Source: Nostoc sp. TCL240-02 (lineage in GTDB: Bacteria > Cyanobacteriota > Cyanobacteriia > Cyanobacteriales > Nostocaceae). Taken from it: DNA of 64,000 nucleotides. A program made the position numbers and the translations under genes. This document shows, piece after piece, positions 55,308 to 63,125 of the stretch (its first letter is position 1; every line of letters starts with the position of its first letter). The notes below the pieces were generated by a model. The model saw only the letters and a program-made list of their open reading frames with translations, was not told the DNA's origin and did not search any database. The stretch covers positions 4,216,501 to 4,280,500 of the forward strand of contig NZ_CP040094.1 of NCBI RefSeq assembly GCF_013343235.1, given 5' to 3'.

Positions 55308-56233
55308 GAGCTGATTCGTAAACAAAAGATTAAGCTGCCATTCGTTTTACCATCAGACGAATCAATGAGCCGTAAATCATGGCTTCACTGATCTCTGTGT
55401 ACAACTCATAATCCTTGCTCAAACGCCGAAATCGATTGAGCCAGCCGAATGTCCTTTCCACAATCCACCGCTTGGGTAATCGTTCAAATGTTTTCGATAT
55501 TCTCTCAATCACCTCAACACGAACCTGTTCTCCGCAAACTTGCTTGACAGCTTGAGCAAAGTTTTCACCAGAATAGCCTTGATCTACCCAAACAACTTCC
55601 AATTTAGACAATTCCTGAGCCGATTCATGGAGTACAACCACAGCCCCCAAACGTTCCGACGCATTAGCTTCAGTCACTAAAACGCCAATCAACAAACCTT
55701 GAGAATCCACAACTATATGTCGCTTACGGCCTTTAACTTTCTTACCACCATCGAAACCGTAGACTTCCCCTTTTTTTCCGTTGTCTTCACTGACTGAGAA
55801 TCGGCGATCGCAACGCTAGAGTGTTCGTCTCTGCCCAAATCTTGTCGCAGTTGATGGCGCACTTGGTCGTGAATTTTCTGCCATATTCCTTTGCGCTGCC
55901 ATTTCTGAAAGTAGCCGTATACTGTTGTGTAAGGTGGAAGATCATGGGGTAGCATTTCCCACTGACACCCGGTACGTTGCACATAGAAAATAGCATTCAA
56001 AATTTCTCGTAAATCTACTTCTACAGGATGCCCAAACCCTTTAGGTTTTGGTAGAAAGGGCTTGATAATTAACCATTCGGCATCGCTTAAATCACTTGGG
56101 TAGGGTTTACGCTGTGGATTTTCAATCGCAGGTAGACGGCTCATCGACTACAACATAAATTACACTCGACTTAGCCTATAACCTGAACAAAACCGGATTC
56201 AGTTTTCTTTAGATTTTCTTTACGAATCAGCTC
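55308..56233 (-). mobile_element. 926-bp IS5-family insertion sequence
   Basis: Terminal inverted repeats GAGCTGATTCGTAAA[C/G]AAAA match 19 of 20 bases. A 3-base target duplication TAA lies at 55305-55307 and 56234-56236, as in the TNA duplications of IS1031-type members of IS5. Two overlapping transposase frames are inside. It has inserted into pnuC. The tight ends and intact frames point to a fairly recent insertion. Confidence 0.93.
55330..56144 (-). CDS. IS5-family transposase, made by -1 frameshift
   Basis: A DDE transposase in two frames. The first (55713-56144) reads MSRLPAIENPQRKPYPSDLS, EWLIIKPFLPKPKG, RTGCQWEMLPHDLPPYTTVY and IADSQSVKT (first Asp). The second (to 55330) has VVWVDQGYSGENF (second Asp) and RWIVERTFGWLNRFRRL (the Glu). 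At 55770-55776 the minus strand reads A AAA AAG followed by GGG, a classic slippery site; a -1 shift gives KGEVYGFDGGKKVKGRK, linking the frames into one protein of about 270 residues. Confidence 0.9.
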
Positions 56234-56340: not shown

Positions 56341-56856
56341 TCAAAACAATTTTACGCGGTGGACTATATCGAATCTGCAAAACTTTACTAGAATCAGATC
56401 GCGATATACATCAGGATGTAAATACTCCCGAAATGCGTAAGTGTCTGTTCTGACTTGCGTTCCTGAAATTGGAAAAGTTTTGCGATCGCAATCCACAAGT
56501 CGATTAACTGCTACTAGTGCCTGGCTTACGTGTTCACCGTAAAATTCACTACAGTAAAAGTGAGTAATTTTTTTTGATTCCAGTTGTTTCAGGATGTAAT
56601 CTTCGTGCTTTTTCTTAATCTCAGGAGTGTCACCAAGCTCCGTTGGACCATCCCAAGCTTCAATTACCTGGATTTGGGGATAAATTTGACGCAGCAAGTT
56701 AGCTCGAACGGTTAAAGGAATCGCAGTCACCTCTGGACACTCATAAATTATCACCAGCACTTCATCCATCTCTGCTAAAGCAGTTTCAATCACCAATTGA
56801 TGTCCTTTGTGGAGAGGTGCGTATTTTCCAAGCGTGAGTCCGCATGTACCAGCCAT
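56341..56856 (-). CDS. NadR-like NMN adenylyltransferase, truncated
   Basis: A nucleotidyltransferase making NAD from NMN. TLGKYAPLHKGHQLVIETAL (about 8-27) is the GKYAPLHKGH-type ATP site, and the later ISGTQVRTDT matches the ISGT[KQ]IR signature. In NadR proteins a ribosylnicotinamide kinase domain follows YRDLI; here, after YRDLI at about residue 155, the frame runs 16 unrelated residues and stops. The kinase domain has been lost, apparently in the same deletion that removed the 5' half of pnuC. The adenylyltransferase part looks intact. Confidence 0.8.
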   Translation of the reverse strand: MAGTCGLTLGKYAPLHKGHQLVIETALAEMDEVLVIIYECPEVTAIPLTVRANLLRQIYPQIQVIEAWDGPTELGDTPEIKKKHEDYILKQLESKKITHFYCSEFYGEHVSQALVAVNRLVDCDRKTFPISGTQVRTDTYAFREYLHPDVYRDLILVKFCRFDIVHRVKLF

Positions 56857-57006
56857 AGTTTTGACTTTCCTGAGCTTTATATTTGAATTACACTAATGTC
56901 TATTTAAAAAACTTGGAAACATTGGACTTATAACTTTTGGTTGATGAGCTTGTTAGTTAATTAGATGAAAATTTTGCTGGAATTTAGAAAATATTAAGCA
57001 AAAAAT

Positions 57007-57168
57007 ATGTCCAAGATCGCAATTATTGACTTGCAGCCTGACAATCAAGTTGAAGAACGCGAAGTATCTGAGGCAGTTATGGCGGTAGTCATTGGAGGAA
57101 TTCAAGTTAAGCTTCTAGGTAATAATATTCTGGATGCGACATTCAAGGGTTTTACATTGACGGTTTAA
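57007..57168 (+). CDS. Double-glycine leader small peptide (53 residues)
   Basis: An ATG at 57007 opens 53 codons: MSKIAIIDLQPDNQVEE, then SEAVMAVVIGG at about 21-31, then a short core IQVKLLGNNILDATFKG. The start (MSKIAIIDL) and the GG at 30-31 are typical of cyanobacterial bacteriocin-type leaders (MxKIxIxDL ... GG). It has no cysteine. The core is unlike the three relatives at 59-61 kb. No ribosome site is obvious. It may be a remnant of a longer precursor. Confidence 0.55.
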   Translation: MSKIAIIDLQPDNQVEEREVSEAVMAVVIGGIQVKLLGNNILDATFKGFTLTV

Positions 57169-57443
57169 ATTTGGCAACATATCGCTTGGGGAAGGGGTAA
57201 ATTCAAACCTTTTCCCCTTAATCCAAAGAGGTTGCCTACACACTAGTGATAATAAATACCTTTTATGGTGCGTGACTGCCGCCATGCAATCACACAAAAA
57301 GACAAAGATGCCAGTTCCTTTCTCTTGATCTTCTCTTTCTGCGCCAGAGGTATTATTTTTCAGACAAATTTTTTAATATACGGAATGACTCAAGTATGGT
57401 TACACTACCGACATAGTAATCACTGTTGGTGGAATACCGAGCA

Positions 57444-58772
57444 ATGTATAAAAATGTTAAAAGATTTACTGCTATTTTTCTGTTGGTCTTTCTGTTGATT
57501 GTTTCTATCAACTTTGCAGTAATTGCTCAAAATAGTTCAGATGGCCCTTCTGGGAATTTTGCATCACCTCAGATATGTTCAGTACCTCCTGGTCTGAAAA
57601 CTCAACAAGTCATTGCCGACAATGGTCGTAATCTAGTTAAGATGGGCGATCGCATCAGGGTAAGAGTTGAAGGATTATCAGCAGCCACCAAAAATACAAC
57701 GGCTAATGCCAGCAATTCATTTGATCCTCGACAATTAGTGTTGTACCTGGATGGTTATGAACTAGAGGATGTTCACGGAGAACCAGTCATCGTCATGGTT
57801 CCGGGTAAAGATCAACAAAAAATTGTTGATGATAATTGGTTAGCTTTTCGGCTTGAACGTACCGACTCGTCTCAAGCTGCATGGAATACGCTTCTTGGCC
57901 AGGCAAATAGATACAGTATTAACGTAATAGCGGGGGTAGGCTGTCCCAGAAAACTGGCGATTCCGGTGAGCAATCCTCTATCACCTCCTCAATTAAAAAT
58001 AGTTCTGTTATCATGGCGATTTTGGCTGTGTCTGCTTCTAGTGCTGTCTATTATTTTAATATTCATTAGGTATTGCCGAAGCACTCTTCGTAGCCCTGGA
58101 ATAGAAGGGGTTTACTCTAAAAAAGAGGTGATTGGTGGCCAAGAATTGTTGATTCCAGAAAAGGCGGAACTTGAAAAAGAAGATCGAAAAACCCAAATTG
58201 CTCAATTTTTTCTTGGTAGGAAAAAACTAAACAAAAACCCGTTCAGTTTATCGATATCTCAACTTGCTTTTTGGACATTTCTCATTTTTGGCTCTTACCT
58301 GATTATCTATGGCATAACAGGGGACTATACTAATATTTTGACTCAACAATCACTAATATTATTGGGAATCAATTCTATCACTGCGTTTGGTACTTCCTTA
58401 ATTGATGGGCAAGGTAATGAGAAAAATAGAAAAGGTAGTCAACGCATTTCTGAAGGTTTTTTCTATGATATATTATCGGATATTAATGGAGTCAACTTTC
58501 ACCGTTTCCAAACATTTATTTGGACAGTTGCGATTGGGCTTTTCTTTGTTTGGGAGGTCATTAAAAATCTGGCAATGCCGGAATTTGATGAAACACTTTT
58601 GACACTACAAGGAATCAGTGCTGCAACATATCTTGGGCTTAGAGGGCAAGAGCAGCATGGTATGACAAAAGAGCCGGAATCTACAACTATAGAAGATAAT
58701 TCATCTGAACAACCGCTTCCACCAGCACAAGACAATCCACCAGAGAGTGATTCATCGATTCCTGCTAGTTAA
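57444..58772 (+). CDS. Secreted/membrane protein of unknown function
   Basis: A 442-residue protein from the ATG at 57444 (a TTG six codons upstream is also open). It has a signal-like N-terminus (FTAIFLLVFLLIVSINFAV), an extracytoplasmic domain (about 30-175) with RIRVRVEGLS and LVLYLDGYELEDVHG, a membrane helix (about 188-210, FWLCLLLVLSIILIFI), a cytoplasmic basic part (220-275), then three more helices (LAFWTFLIFGSYLIIYGI, SLILLGINSITAFGT, FIWTVAIGLFFVWEVI) and a Pro/Ser-rich acidic tail (SEQPLPPAQDNPPESDSS). I do not recognise the family. It lies between GG-leader peptide genes. Confidence 0.7.
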   Translation: MYKNVKRFTAIFLLVFLLIVSINFAVIAQNSSDGPSGNFASPQICSVPPGLKTQQVIADNGRNLVKMGDRIRVRVEGLSAATKNTTANASNSFDPRQLVLYLDGYELEDVHGEPVIVMVPGKDQQKIVDDNWLAFRLERTDSSQAAWNTLLGQANRYSINVIAGVGCPRKLAIPVSNPLSPPQLKIVLLSWRFWLCLLLVLSIILIFIRYCRSTLRSPGIEGVYSKKEVIGGQELLIPEKAELEKEDRKTQIAQFFLGRKKLNKNPFSLSISQLAFWTFLIFGSYLIIYGITGDYTNILTQQSLILLGINSITAFGTSLIDGQGNEKNRKGSQRISEGFFYDILSDINGVNFHRFQTFIWTVAIGLFFVWEVIKNLAMPEFDETLLTLQGISAATYLGLRGQEQHGMTKEPESTTIEDNSSEQPLPPAQDNPPESDSSIPAS

Positions 58773-59274
58773 CATCACAACCCAAATAAGCTGTTAAGCA
58801 AATAAGATTGCACATTGAGATCGTAGAGGGGCAGGGAGCAAGGAAGAGAACATGAAAATGATGCAATTTAAATGACGATTAGCTTACCAGCAGTGTAACC
58901 TCGGCAATTGCTGGCGCTACAGTCGAACGCACCGAGTCAGACATGTCTACCAGTGCCAAAAATGCAAATTTAAAGTCATGTTGTTTTTCAGGAAAATTAT
59001 TTGGCTTGTTGTCCGTCTGATGTCGTCCGAACGCTTGTGGATAGGAAAGATTCACCTATTAACAGAAACTCATCGACGCTCAAATTTGTAGACTCAATCA
59101 CCACAGCATCCGCACTAACTCGATCTCCATTTTACTTGAGGCGATCGCCTCAAGTAAAATGGAGATCGCCCTATGATAGATTCAATCTCGATTTTATGAG
59201 CCATTTTTTGCTCTGCAAATTAATTAACTTAGAAGGTAATAGTTTGAGAAGAACAGGCAGCGACGCTACTAACT
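58773..59274. other. Intergenic stretch with a long palindrome
   Basis: About 500 bases. A frame at about 58890-59090 has QCNLGNCWR and YQCQKCKF, zinc-finger-like spacing that might be the worn end of an IS transposase, but no further homology was recognised. A perfect 48-bp palindrome lies at 59121-59168. No complete gene was seen. Confidence 0.45.
59121..59168. repeat. 48-bp perfect palindrome centred on a HIP1 site
   Basis: The left half runs CGATCTCCATTTTACTTGAG plus GCGA; the right half is its exact reverse complement. The centre is GCGATCGC. The stem is perfect for 24 base pairs with no loop, so it is likely to extrude as a cruciform or to be a repeat copied in inverse. No T tract follows. 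Confidence 0.85.
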
Positions 59275-59541
59275 TTATAGTTGCATCAGGACAAGAAGCC
59301 AATTATAGTTCGATCTTGAATAGTCTATAGTGTAAATCTTATTGTCGCGGAAGTTATAAGAATTTGCACCTTCATTTGTAGTGCTTGAGCCACTTACTCC
59401 AATATTTACACTATCACTAAAGTTTTTAATGTAGACGTTATTAACTCCCCCAAATATAGTATCTAATTGCACTAGATATAGGGGATTGCAAAATGTTTCT
59501 ACATCATCTAGACAAAGGTTAAAAATTACTATTTTAGCCAT
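59275..59541 (-). CDS. Double-glycine leader peptide, family member A
   Basis: An 88-residue protein: leader MAKIVIFNLCLDDVETF ... LYLVQLDTIFGG ending at GG about residues 31-32, then a core NNVYIKNFSDSVNIGVSG and, near the end, KIYTIDYSRSNYNW. Apart from one Cys in the leader and one more before it ends, the core has none. The start follows AAAGAG. The core matches members B and C in YIxNxSDSVNI and TIDYSRSNYN. The GG leader predicts cleavage by a C39 peptidase-ABC transporter or a C1A-type transporter; none lies in the window. Product type unknown. Confidence 0.7.
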   Translation of the reverse strand: MAKIVIFNLCLDDVETFCNPLYLVQLDTIFGGVNNVYIKNFSDSVNIGVSGSSTTNEGANSYNFRDNKIYTIDYSRSNYNWLLVLMQL

Positions 59542-59898
59542 TAGACTCTTTGGTGGTTCAGGATTTTATTGAAAAGTGTTTAACTGTGACTGTATCCCCC
59601 TTAATCTATCTTTTTAGGCTACGAAGTACACACATCTATACACACGAAGCAAAACATTGCGTGATCCTCCTAAATCTCCCTTTATTAAGGGGGATTTTGA
59701 CATTTATTACCGCTCTTAAAAAGGGGGTGGGGGATCTAAAACTTTGGGGCAACTCTAAAAGAATTGTATGTACACCGTAGCTTTTTAAGCGAGAGTAACC
59801 GGAATTGAAGTCACCCTTAGCAAGGGGGATTCAGAGGTATCTAAAACTTTTGATACTGAAAAGATAACTGTTCAAACATCCTCTTAAATGCATTTGCC
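59542..59898. other. Intergenic stretch with dispersed hairpins
   Basis: Between peptide genes A and B. It holds CTCCCTTTATTAAGGGGGAT (about 59684-59703), a CCCCCTTA/TAAGGGGG-type hairpin, AAAAAGGGGGTGGGGGATC, and CTTAGCAAGGGGGATTC, pieces of a common repeat. A 76-codon plus-strand frame here is repeat DNA and not accepted. Confidence 0.5.
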
Positions 59899-60180
59899 TT
59901 AGTGCCCCATCGAACCTACGTACATTACACCAAAATTATTGTAATTTGACCTTGAATAGTCTATGGTGTTGAACTTACTATCATTAATGCTATAGCCACC
60001 TGTACCTACATGTTTAATGTCTCCTGTACCTGTGCTATTTATATTTACGGAGTCACTGTTATTGGATATATAAATGTACGGAGAACCTCCCCATACAGTA
60101 GATATTTCTGTAGGGCTTAGATCGTCTTGTAATGCCTTTACACTAATATAGTGTAAACTTAAAACTACTATTTTTGGCAT
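59899..60180 (-). CDS. Double-glycine leader peptide, family member B
   Basis: A 93-residue protein with a good ribosome site (AAGGAAATAAAAAC). Leader MPKIVVLSLHYISVKAL ... LSPTEISTVWGG ends at GG about 31-32. The core starts SPYIYISNNSDSVNINSTG and ends KFNTIDYSRSNYNNFG, followed by a Met/Gly-rich tail (VMYVGSMGH). It has no cysteine, so it is not a lanthipeptide or disulfide bacteriocin. The Gly/Ser/Asn-rich middle (STGTGDIKHVGTGGYS) looks like beta-strand adhesin sequence. It lies in tandem with member A. Confidence 0.72.
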   Translation of the reverse strand: MPKIVVLSLHYISVKALQDDLSPTEISTVWGGSPYIYISNNSDSVNINSTGTGDIKHVGTGGYSINDSKFNTIDYSRSNYNNFGVMYVGSMGH

Positions 60181-61155
60181 GTTTTTATTTCCTTATAAAT
60201 GCAATTTCATTTTACATGATTAATTAAAACAGGTGTAATGTGATTTTTAAAATCTCTAGAAGTTAAGAAAAAACTATTAATTCGAGCATCAATTTAGTTT
60301 TTTCTCAAATTTGGGATCTTGTTTCCCTTCAAGCAAAAAACTAAAGTACTGATTAGGGAGAACTCACAGGCTTTCTAAAACCCTTGCTGGATAAGAATCT
60401 TGATGAAAAAATTGGCTAAGTTCTAAAACTCGTAAACCTTGACTATGAAAGGATTATTAGCCTTTAGATGCGTTTACACTAGCGGCATGGCTGTAAAGGT
60501 TGTCTCTTTCATATTGAAGTTCTCTTGATGTGAAAGCTAGCTAGTAAAGTACTGTAACCTATTTTAATTTATTTTTTGTTTAGGCTCTATTAAGACATAT
60601 TTGGCTTTTTTTGGTCTCAAAATATTAGCTTTTTATCTAGTAGTTTTTAATCTACGTTGTCAAAATACCGAGAAATAATTAATACGATACAAGTGATAGA
60701 GAATTTATATATTCATCGCTAGTGTAATTCTTTCTATACGTCTGTATATAGCACAGTTAAAAGACAGGAAGTCCTTATACAGCATAATATTTAATGATAA
60801 ATAGCAAGTCATTATCTTAGACTATATAAGTTTAAATATCTCACTTTTGACAGTTAATTTTAAGACAAAAATAATTTGATTATGTCCTGAAAAATTATAC
60901 ATACAGCTAATTATTTTATTAAATCTTTATATGAAATATTTTTTCAACATAAAAGCTTCATGTAAGAACTATTGAAATTATAGTTGATGGTGTAAAAATT
61001 TAAGAGTCAAACCAACTCCTCAAAAAATAAGATGAACCGAAATAAGAGGATTTTTGACTCAATTAATGATTGTTAGACTCTGAGTGCTGGTAAATAATCA
61101 GAGAACAATTTGCAATGTTGAAATCAAAAAATTTCTGATTCAAAAAAGTAATGCA
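60181..61155. other. Divergent region between peptide genes B and C
   Basis: About 975 strongly AT-rich bases with no accepted gene. B is read leftward and C rightward, so both promoters should lie here. CTTTCATATTGAAGTTC and GATGTGAAAG near 60509-60535 form an imperfect hairpin. No transporter or modifying enzyme is encoded. Confidence 0.45.
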
Positions 61156-61416
61156 ATGGCTAAAATAGTAATTTCTGACTTACGTTCTAGTGATGTAGAA
61201 ATATTTCTGCACGGGCTAGCTCCAGTACAATTAGAGACAATATTCGGTGGTGCTTCTGATCTCTACATAAGCAATGTTCCTGATAGTGTAATTAATCAAT
61301 TATCTGATGTAACTAGTAAACTGTCTACATTGATTCCTTCGTTAAATTTGGATAATAACAAGTTTCTTACCGTTGACTTCTCAAAATTAAATATAAATTT
61401 TGTCTTTGCTAGTTAA
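61156..61416 (+). CDS. Double-glycine leader peptide, family member C
   Basis: An 86-residue protein from the ATG at 61156; an in-frame start at 61084 would add 24 residues but masks the family start MAKIVISDL. Leader ends LAPVQLETIFGG at about 32. The core has DLYISNVPDSVINQLSD and FLTVDFSKLNINF, the same two blocks as members A and B, with more changes. No cysteine. The rRNA/tRNA pseudouridine synthase gene starts 20 bases after its stop, so the two may share a transcript. Confidence 0.68.
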   Translation: MAKIVISDLRSSDVEIFLHGLAPVQLETIFGGASDLYISNVPDSVINQLSDVTSKLSTLIPSLNLDNNKFLTVDFSKLNINFVFAS

Positions 61417-61436
61417 AAGTCTCCTAAAAACGCTGT

Positions 61437-63125
61437 ATGGTAGTTCTGCACGCACTTTCAGATTTCATCGACTGCGATTTTGCTGTCAGCGATTTATCTC
61501 CGAGTTATTGGTACGAAGGGCGTTGTCTCCAAAGTGACGTAGGCGTAGCCCGTCGTAGACATCGCTTAAGATTACCCCGCACTTCAATGTCCGAAGCGAT
61601 CGCTAACGGACTCATGCAACAGCTTGCAAACAATGACTGTTATTCTCGTGAGGGCAAGATGTATGGAATACTTTTGGTGGAACTGCCTAATGGCGAACAA
61701 CGTGTGCTGAAAGCCTTTTCCGGTCTTTTAAATGGTTGCAATATTGTTGAAGGTTGGGTTCCACCAATTCCAGGACGAGACGAAGTTGCTTTAGAGGAAG
61801 CCCGCACTTTAGCTGAGTTGGATAAGATCAAACAGGAAATTCTTTGTTTGAAGCAACTAACCGAACGTCAGCAGTATGAAACCCTATCTGATGAATTTGA
61901 GCGACAGTTGCAAGCAATGAGCGATCGCCATCGTCATTGCAAACACCAACGACAGGAAAAACGTCAACAAATCTGCAATACGCTCACTCCAGAAGCACTC
62001 GCGATCGCCCTTGAACAACTCGACGAAGAAAGTCGTCAGCAGGGAATTGAGCGAAAACAACTTAAACGCCAGCAAAATGAAGTATTACAGCCCCTCCAGC
62101 GTTTCATAGCAGCAACAGATGCGCGAATTAGCGAACTGAAACAACAGCGTAAAGCCCTATCCCGTCAATTACAAGCTCAGATGCAAGCTACCTACAGTCT
62201 GACTAATTTTTCCGGGCGATCGCTATCATTACAGCAATTGATGCCAGGAGGTTCGCCCACTGGCACAGGTGACTGTTGTGCCCCAAAATTGCTCCATTAT
62301 GCGGCAACACATAATTTAAAACCACTAGCAATGGCAGAGTTTTGGTGGGGTGTGTCTTCAGTAAATCAGGATAAAATTCCGGGAGAATTTTATGGCGCGT
62401 GTATCGAACGATGTCAGCCATTGATGGGGTTTTTGCTCTCAGGGTTAAGACTTAACCCCCCAGCCCCCTTCCCTCGCAGGGAAGGGAGAGAAGTCACTTT
62501 ACCCATTATTTATGAAGACGAATGGTTAATTGCTGTAAACAAACCTGCTGGGTTACTTTCGGTACCTGGACGTTATCGCGATCGCCAAGATAGTGTTTTG
62601 AGTCGCTTACGTCATCTGTTACCGGATGGGATGATGCTTACATCTGTGCATCGCCTAGATCAGGAAACTTCTGGGATTTTGTTATTAGCACGTGATCGCC
62701 AAACCCATAAGCAACTCAGCCAGCAGTTTCAGCAACGCCAAGTTCACAAGGTTTATGAAGCTATACTTTCCGGTGTTGCGATCGCTGAACAAGGTGTAAT
62801 TGACTTGCCATTATGGGGAGATCCTGAAAATCGCCCTTATCAAAAAGTTGATTGGCAAAATGGTAAACCCAGCTTGACACAATTCCAGGTAATGGCAAGA
62901 GAACAAGATTACACCCGCTTAGAATTTACACCGCTAACAGGACGCACCCATCAATTGAGGGTTCATGCGGCTGATGTGCGAGGACTTGGGATTGCTATTT
63001 TAGGCGATCGCCTTTATGGATGCGATGCAGTCACCAGTCGCTTACATCTACACGCTAGAGAACTTCATATTGAGCATCCACAGTTTAAAAAAACCTTGTA
63101 TCTAAAAGCAATTACGCCCTTTTGA
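61437..63125 (+). CDS. RluA family pseudouridine synthase with long N-terminal extension
   Basis: Converts uridine to pseudouridine in rRNA or tRNA. Of 562 residues, the catalytic RluA domain covers about 355-560: WLIAVNKPAGLLSVPG, HRLDQETSGILLLARD (catalytic Asp in HRLD) and TGRTHQLRVHAAD. The first 350 residues are an extension with a basic start, KMYGILLVELPNGEQRVLKA, and a long coiled coil (about 115-255). Two parts look repeat-derived: RCLQSDVGVARRRHR (61520-61565) and NPPAPFPRREGRE (62455-62495), both in frame. The RNA target is unknown. Confidence 0.87.
   Translation: MVVLHALSDFIDCDFAVSDLSPSYWYEGRCLQSDVGVARRRHRLRLPRTSMSEAIANGLMQQLANNDCYSREGKMYGILLVELPNGEQRVLKAFSGLLNGCNIVEGWVPPIPGRDEVALEEARTLAELDKIKQEILCLKQLTERQQYETLSDEFERQLQAMSDRHRHCKHQRQEKRQQICNTLTPEALAIALEQLDEESRQQGIERKQLKRQQNEVLQPLQRFIAATDARISELKQQRKALSRQLQAQMQATYSLTNFSGRSLSLQQLMPGGSPTGTGDCCAPKLLHYAATHNLKPLAMAEFWWGVSSVNQDKIPGEFYGACIERCQPLMGFLLSGLRLNPPAPFPRREGREVTLPIIYEDEWLIAVNKPAGLLSVPGRYRDRQDSVLSRLRHLLPDGMMLTSVHRLDQETSGILLLARDRQTHKQLSQQFQQRQVHKVYEAILSGVAIAEQGVIDLPLWGDPENRPYQKVDWQNGKPSLTQFQVMAREQDYTRLEFTPLTGRTHQLRVHAADVRGLGIAILGDRLYGCDAVTSRLHLHARELHIEHPQFKKTLYLKAITPF
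61520..61567. repeat. Dispersed repeat within the RluA reading frame
   Basis: GACGTAGGCGTAGCCCGTCG and TAGACATCGC belong to a common cyanobacterial repeat (reverse: GCGATGTCTACGACGGGCTA). Here it is translated as an Arg-rich segment near residue 35. Confidence 0.6.
62452..62496. repeat. Second dispersed hairpin repeat within the RluA reading frame
   Basis: CCCCCCAGCCCCCTTCCCT and AGGGAAGGG around CGC form the hairpin known from many cyanobacterial intergenic gaps. It adds about 14 residues (LNPPAPFPRREGRE) just ahead of the catalytic domain. Confidence 0.65.

Follow-up and report, generated by a model that had tools for sequence, protein, structure and literature searches.

A two-type family of double-glycine leader peptides in Nostoc and its relatives, with an upstream box shared by other leader-peptide genes

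Double-glycine (GG) proteins named EbfG are secreted by Synechococcus elongatus PCC 7942 via a C39 peptidase transporter and are located in the biofilm matrix (PMC4997328, PMC9981879), and Wang et al., surveying 58 genomes of cyanobacteria, reported 290 putative precursors (PMC3140520). This report concerns three small GG-leader peptides, A, B, and C, encoded within 64,000 nucleotides of Nostoc sp. TCL240-02 DNA (contig NZ_CP040094.1 of assembly GCF_013343235.1, positions 4,216,501 to 4,280,500, or G000:C1:4216501-4280500 in our notation; hereafter the window, in a genome that is a single contig of 7.9 Mb), together with a DNA box, GACAAAA-N9-TTATGTC, that lies upstream of such peptides. We put at roughly 0.5 the probability that A, B, and C give rise to small exported proteins of two types, which would be controlled through the box, exported by a C39 transporter, and active in the matrix or at the cell surface. 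The GG leader, the pairing of the two types, selection on the core, the linkage to exporters in other genomes, and the sharing of the box are read from sequence; the action of the box, and everything that would follow transcription, we infer.

The likeness to EbfG1-4 drawn here is one of description. Both groups are small GG-leader proteins with several paralogues per locus and no domain of known function; according to the 2016 paper on EbfG the mature proteins lack homology to proteins of other cyanobacteria. Secretion of EbfG depends on the C39 peptidase, and for the present family this dependence is suggested by gene linkage; EbfG1-3 form amyloid in an Escherichia coli assay (PMC4997328, PMC9981879), whereas the family shows no such sign in simple tests. 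The family's C39-type loci also resemble groups I and II of Wang et al., which combine HlyD and a SurA-type peptidyl-prolyl isomerase (PPIase) with a C39 exporter that carries an additional nucleotide-binding domain. Precursors in that survey comprise NHLP, N11P, HetP, and DUF37 members plus 150 "other", and the parts of it consulted do not describe the family's cores (PMC3140520). The SigJ regulon of Nostoc punctiforme likewise involves a promoter-like box common to many genes of filamentous cyanobacteria; this J-box, GGGaAtacT, is different from ours, and a second motif of the same paper stands in its supplement, outside this comparison (PMC6495340). A literature search, covering listings and text passages of papers, returned no description of the core, the two-type structure, or the box. 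The peptides belong to a known cyanobacterial GG-leader kind; what is newer is a box that such genes have in common.

A, B, and C share a leader with GG at residues 31-32 and two conserved core blocks, the last of which reads TVDFSKLNIN in C and not DYSRSNYN, and their mature parts contain no cysteine. When the whole genome was searched with A, the matches at E<=0.001 were A itself, C (E 4.3e-13), B (E 4.5e-13), and no others, so the likeness among the three is far above chance; a profile search of the same genome listed a fourth match. Neither these peptides nor a fourth GG-leader open reading frame (ORF) in the window matches Pfam or NCBIfam above curated cut-offs, which leaves all four outside the NHLP and N11P families that we take to be included in the NCBIfam library. 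An earlier reading of the window from its letters alone (the sequence-only reading) had placed the four ORFs at the coordinates of Table 1, with the strands given there for A, B, and C, had ascribed the shared leader and core blocks to A, B, and C, and had noted that the core of the fourth differs, all of which is borne out; it knew of no named class with the core of A, B, and C. Its description of the cores as cysteine-free holds for A, B, and C; cysteine does occur in 4 of 80 family cores (the kept set, being those of 103 extracted members that pass a core pattern and a length filter) and in a third group of relatives, below. The core cysteine that characterizes lanthipeptides is thus absent as a rule. 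A GG-like pair stands at the expected place, by a strict filter, in 74 of the 103.

A profile search, a check of the kind that the sequence-only reading had proposed, was run with 69 members. It found matches in 95 of 217 genomes of the window's family, Nostocaceae, at E<=0.001, where the weakest matches may cover the leader only, and at E<=1e-7 in 32 of 388 genomes drawn evenly across the order, all 32 belonging to Nostocaceae; B alone as query matched 51 of the 217. Among named genomes, a scan located 16 loci, distributed over the genera Amazonocrinis, Nostoc, Cyanocohniella, Anabaena, Cylindrospermum, Desmonostoc, Dendronalium, and Cuspidothrix. Among 5.8 billion proteins, a single-sequence search with B retrieved one near-identical copy only, since exact words are lost quickly as the cores diverge; with the profile there were 56 matches, including Nos7524_0528 of Nostoc sp. 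PCC 7524 and one protein labelled as from a Leptolyngbyaceae metagenome bin, outside Nostocaceae. All visible source names are "hypothetical" or "uncharacterized". A plasmid search with A as query gave no match.

The core consensus is I-x-N-x-[ST]-D near the start and [DN]-N-K-[IL]-x-T-[IV]-D-[YF]-S-R near the end, and hidden Markov models built on the last 58 residues separate two types, which by their cores are homologous. Type 1 (ending DYSRS) includes A and B and is present in up to four copies per locus; type 2 (ending DFSRLTINLV) includes C, has more leucine and phenylalanine, and occurs as a rule once per locus. Of 57 loci with either type, 49 have type 1, 49 have type 2, and 41 have both, and both types are present in 41 of the 42 genomes with fetched loci, the exception being G089, where one locus was fetched; because loci were fetched around matches, these counts do not amount to a random sample. 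Such a pairing of partners is also what a two-peptide bacteriocin would have. Beside these stands a small type 3, with a cysteine directly after the GG in the five members with full sequence; most type 3 proteins fall outside the 80.

Comparison of coding sequences suggests that these genes are maintained. The ratio of nonsynonymous to synonymous substitution rates (dN/dS) is below 1 in 125 of 125 pairs of 60-93% identity, with a median of 0.34 (medians of 0.24 in the cores and 0.49 in the leaders), the 80 proteins being split at residue 32, by which short-leader type 2 members lose a few core residues to the leader. The two nearest relatives (G119 and G120) by themselves are too thin for this purpose (over A, B, and C together, 6 changes are synonymous and 8 are not in one comparison, and 5 and 6 in the other), and in both, A, B, and C are intact and in the same order. 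The family is therefore under purifying selection. Wang et al. found that the cores of cyanobacterial precursors show very little conservation (PMC3140520). In the present family the core is more conserved than the leader, which hints that the function resides in the sequence of the core itself.

The box was derived from words frequent upstream of the peptides, which resolved to GACAAAA-N9-TTATGTC; the pattern was thus learnt on peptide loci. In the 450 bp upstream of peptides a loose version of it occurs 48 times, with exactly 13 bp between GACN and TATGTC in 37 cases, and 22 of these 37 fixed-gap sites lie 98-123 bp before the start codon. Among the 37, 19 read GACAAAA..TTATGTC and one is the symmetric GACATAA..TTATGTC; the box may be either a palindromic operator or a directional promoter. 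The exact box is present once in the 7.9-Mb genome, before C, where 0.15 copies are expected by base composition. G119 and G120 have both the box before C, with one change in the fixed letters, and the degenerate one before B, which is closer to the consensus in G119 and has a 12-bp gap in G120. Ten further places in the window's genome have one mismatch, and 2 of them precede GG-leader ORFs, 86 and 138 bp downstream. The former of these boxes (G000:C1:1130022-1130044, in L171) stands before a GG-leader frame with a very histidine-rich core, GHGHSHSKHNHEHEKKHEYWHHK, whose product is possibly a secreted metal binder. Tandem boxes at steps of about 110 bp are seen before a peptide operon at L048:7325-7545 and L117:6857-7077.

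Sites that had not been chosen for their peptides were then examined with the exact box, extended by W before it and Y after it. By our count this pattern gives 119 rows in 83 of the 217 Nostocaceae genomes, and the reversed control gives 43, of which 29 belong to the genus of the window. Thirty of the 119 rows, from the first genomes by handle, were taken as test loci, and at 18 of the 29 with enough sequence a family-like GG-leader ORF lies within 700 bp downstream, mostly with other cores, of many kinds. The corresponding controls are 0 of 200 random window stretches, 0 of 17 two-mismatch sites of the window's genome, and 1 of 30 for the upstream side (Fisher p 1e-19, 2e-5, and 8e-7, respectively, uncorrected for shared descent). 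Of the 30 test loci, several are orthologues and L198 holds a member of the present peptide family, so that by our own grouping the 18 represent about eight lineages; two more sites (L224 and L225), outside the 18, have GG leaders of another kind. Exact boxes thus mark GG-leader genes in Nostocaceae, with exceptions. We tentatively suggest, at a little less than even odds, that GACAAAA-N9-TTATGTC(C/T) is bound by a single regulator or sigma factor, as yet undescribed, which co-activates GG-leader genes of many unrelated kinds across Nostocaceae, and that A/B and C form an obligate two-part extracellular system under it.

The surroundings of the peptides were surveyed at 58 loci with family members, domains being scanned for L034 and L049 and the other loci labelled by likeness to them. 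In 12 loci the labelled gene closest to the peptides on one side is HlyD, separated from them by 62 to about 1,300 bp, and a C39 ABC exporter is labelled behind it in 11 (the contig of L083 stops within HlyD); in 10 of the 12 a PpiC-type PPIase stands on the other side. Linked C39 transporters, which the sequence-only reading had proposed looking for, are therefore present in relatives. DevB and DevC are found in 10 further loci and DevA in 9 of these; the type 2 gene precedes DevB in all 10, and a type 1 gene follows DevA in 7. The DevA, DevB, and DevC proteins of L034 pass the NCBIfam cut-offs for these models, and their counterparts in the 9 other loci share 72-93% identity with them. DevBCA is known as an exporter of heterocyst glycolipid; a peptide neighbour of such an exporter is, to our knowledge, new. 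In all, an exporter of the HlyD/C39 type (12) or the DevB/DevC type (10) adjoins the peptides in 22 of the 58 loci. Family peptides between PPIase and HlyD, in 10 loci, reproduce the layout of groups I and II of Wang et al. (PMC3140520), but, unlike the clusters of that survey, 36 of the 58 loci, the window included, have no labelled exporter in the fetched stretch. In the window's own genome there are six C39 places, none inside the window, and the exporter at about 6.088-6.095 Mb of G000:C1 has a C39 ABC protein 80%, an HlyD 69%, and a PPIase 69% identical to those of L049. Thus, a C39 exporter, as needed by a GG precursor, exists both beside the peptides in relatives' loci and in the genome that encodes A, B, and C, and these would most likely be exported by the one at about 6.088-6.095 Mb. 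An HlyD-like gene at L109, 22% identical, was left out of the exporter count. A sigma-70 gene with an unknown companion is present in 9 loci, two of which lack DevBCA; as a general regulator this neighbour was rejected, the companion being found in 49 of 217 genomes, some of them (such as G207) with no listed peptide match. Elsewhere in the window's genome, at G000:C1:5305071-5307557 (L139:2072-4558), eight near-identical tandem GG-leader ORFs of 79-80 residues, MSDNIKPVELSAEELDNVAGG..., stand upstream of a C39-type exporter gene.

The proposed sequence of events is as follows. The box, acting as promoter or operator, would let a single regulator or sigma factor switch on the GG-peptide genes together, and ribosomes would make precursors consisting of leader and core. 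The C39 exporter, with HlyD, would cut after the GG and secrete cores of 54-61 residues, assisted by the parvulin-type PPIase, which may help folding. Outside the cell, type 1 variants would act with their type 2 partner at the surface or in the extracellular matrix, by analogy with EbfG of S. elongatus, and not in killing.

Several results weigh against this proposal. The box with a 13-bp gap lies upstream of peptides in only 28 of the 58 loci, and gaps of 8-18 raise this to 37. The loose pattern has 82 sites over the 58 loci, where shuffles average 46; because it is also frequent in shuffles, it is the fixed gap and the position that carry the signal. In the window's genome, sites with up to two mismatches number 104, with 168 for the reversed control, and hence show no excess. 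From these two comparisons, only exact or near-exact boxes are meaningful. A second batch of exact-box sites was weaker than the test loci, with a family-like leader at 1 of 7 new sites within Nostocaceae (L248 has a GG leader of another kind) and 0 of 11 outside it, where the pattern is probably chance; at sites of known peptide loci a leader was found in 7 of 9. Five of the 7 new sites look like copies of one recurrent site, and unrelated genes flank those of the five that were inspected. The matching exporter at about 6.09 Mb has no family peptide beside or between its genes. AlphaFold2, run on A with 69 sequences, gave no fold (predicted local distance difference test score 48.7, predicted template modelling score 0.20). 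In simple tests, the amphipathicity of the C-terminal block as a strand does not exceed that of shuffles (mean z -0.52 in type 1 and 0.07 in type 2), nor do aggregation peaks (mean z -0.01 and -0.75), so the aggregation-prone strand of an EbfG-like matrix protein was not found, and the amyloid version is weakened.

A recurrent exact box without a GG leader within 700 bp is seen in one genus group and a relative (L222, L223, L234, L235, L236, L249, and L250); in the four inspected (L222, L235, L249, and L250) it lies between unrelated genes, and perhaps it marks an unannotated RNA or a lost peptide.

The main rival explanation is a two-component bacteriocin, in which types 1 and 2 would jointly attack competing cyanobacteria and DevBCA-like pumps would export the peptides or protect the producer. 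The pairing of two homologous peptides, the several type 1 variants per locus, the HlyD/C39 linkage, and the DevBC(A)-like operon behind the type 2 gene in 10 loci would all fit, and the L034 ATPase scores with export models for darobactin and lactococcin 972, below their cut-offs. We nevertheless consider a bacteriocin the less likely of the two. The median core charge is -1 in 62 cores classed as type 1, a class set by pattern that takes in a few sequences of other types, and -3 in 18 classed as type 2 (range -7 to +6), and thus the mature peptides are not cationic as those of two-peptide bacteriocins are; the cores, moreover, are conserved more than the leaders. Around the 36 loci with no exporter, small neighbours recur within groups of syntenic relatives only, never across groups, which leaves no apparent general immunity candidate, it being noted that immunity proteins can be small and unannotated. 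By these three points the label "bacteriocin-type" in the sequence-only reading is not established: it had found a real GG-leader family, and it had overlooked that the peptides fall into two types, that a box is shared, and that the genome encodes a matching exporter at another place. A surface or matrix role is preferred because EbfG1-4, the cyanobacterial GG proteins with a tested function, work in biofilm, no immunity candidate extends across groups, and the charge is neutral to acidic.

Signalling peptides, whose core would be a ligand for neighbouring cells, for example in heterocyst or hormogonium development, would account for the conservation of the core and for its confinement to one filamentous cyanobacterial family within the sampled order, and HetC, a C39-type exporter, is still described as lacking a known substrate (PMC10986499). 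With about 50 residues and several variants, the cores are, in our judgement, long for a signal, the patchy presence in at most 95 of 217 genomes ill fits a developmental essential, and no receptor appears among the recurrent neighbours, no detailed receptor search having been made; this makes signalling improbable. Still less probable is that A, B, and C are substrates of a kinase/HopA1 gene pair, present in 7 of the 12 C39-type loci, since a different GG-leader peptide directly precedes the kinase (APH/LxmK-like) and HopA1 in 7 of 7, no such pair lies in the fetched stretch of 51 of the 58 loci, and HopA1, which 214 of 217 genomes contain, does not follow the distribution of the family. This idea of a class V lanthipeptide-like dehydration without cysteine has a precedent in CaoK/CaoY (PMC9486802) and would suit cores that are rich in serine and threonine; the pair was rejected as a defining partner of the family, and a check for linked modifying enzymes, proposed by the sequence-only reading, brought up no dedicated one. 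The seven peptides before the kinase themselves have a cysteine-free core with an SFN-like stretch near its end, and a dehydratase pair of this type, with no ring-closing cysteine, would leave dehydro amino acids. The least credible alternative is that these genes are relics, decaying functionless copies of old precursors: stops do occur in the aligned stretch of some copies, but dN/dS below 1 in every pair, the test of codon conservation that the sequence-only reading had set for relics, makes this unlikely, as does the intactness of A, B, and C in three genomes; nor are the copies isolated from transporters, the other sign of relics that it had named.

The remaining features of the window are few. 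The fourth GG-leader ORF has four matching clusters at 68-96% identity and by this conservation is a conserved ORF; it is at most a candidate member of the pair system, and its core is unrelated to those of A, B, and C. A membrane protein of 448 residues (57426-58772) is syntenic in G119 and G120, with which the region aligns in long pieces at 93-97% identity; it was rejected as a partner of the family, since among the fetched peptide loci only those of the window and these two relatives have it labelled. A gene in two frames at 55330-56144, presumably a transposase by its likeness, has a second part that recurs letter for letter in the same genome (L136:18905-19282), and an insertion sequence probably sits just left of the peptide locus. 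An Rfam scan of 56500-62000 gave no match.

Table 1. Coordinates of the peptide genes and boxes in the window and of related peptides at other loci (L)
Feature	Position	Strand	Description
Fourth GG-leader ORF	57007..57168	(+)	53 aa; short core, unrelated; kept in relatives
Protein A, type 1 GG-leader peptide	59275..59541	(-)	88 aa; leader 1-32, core 33-88
Protein B, type 1 GG-leader peptide	59899..60180	(-)	93 aa; leader 1-32, core 33-93
Degenerate box	60594..60616	(-)	2 mismatches; points at B, with A behind B; weak alone, being one of the 104 genome sites with up to two mismatches
Box GACAAAA-N9-TTATGTC	60864..60886	(+)	exact; points at C, 270 bp before its start
Protein C, type 2 GG-leader peptide	61156..61416	(+)	86 aa; core ends TVDFSKLNINFVFAS
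Type 3 relatives	L034:1658-1978, L035:6254-6559, L037:11235-11531, L044:3217-3513, L050:7965-8246, L096:11835-12155		INTIDNSRKIYINGVPIKG-like end
Pre-kinase GG peptides	L040:1950-2189, L049:3583-3810, L051:869-1081, L102:2386-2628, L103:2986-3243, L110:1261-1509, L114:297-593		

In our judgement, hardly any cyanobacterial precursor has a known role or trigger. The shared box offers a handle on when such genes are expressed and may serve as a search tool for unannotated precursors, and it makes a common control switch for exported-peptide genes testable. The two-type family provides a concrete test case for this in culture-collection strains such as Nostoc sp. PCC 7524.

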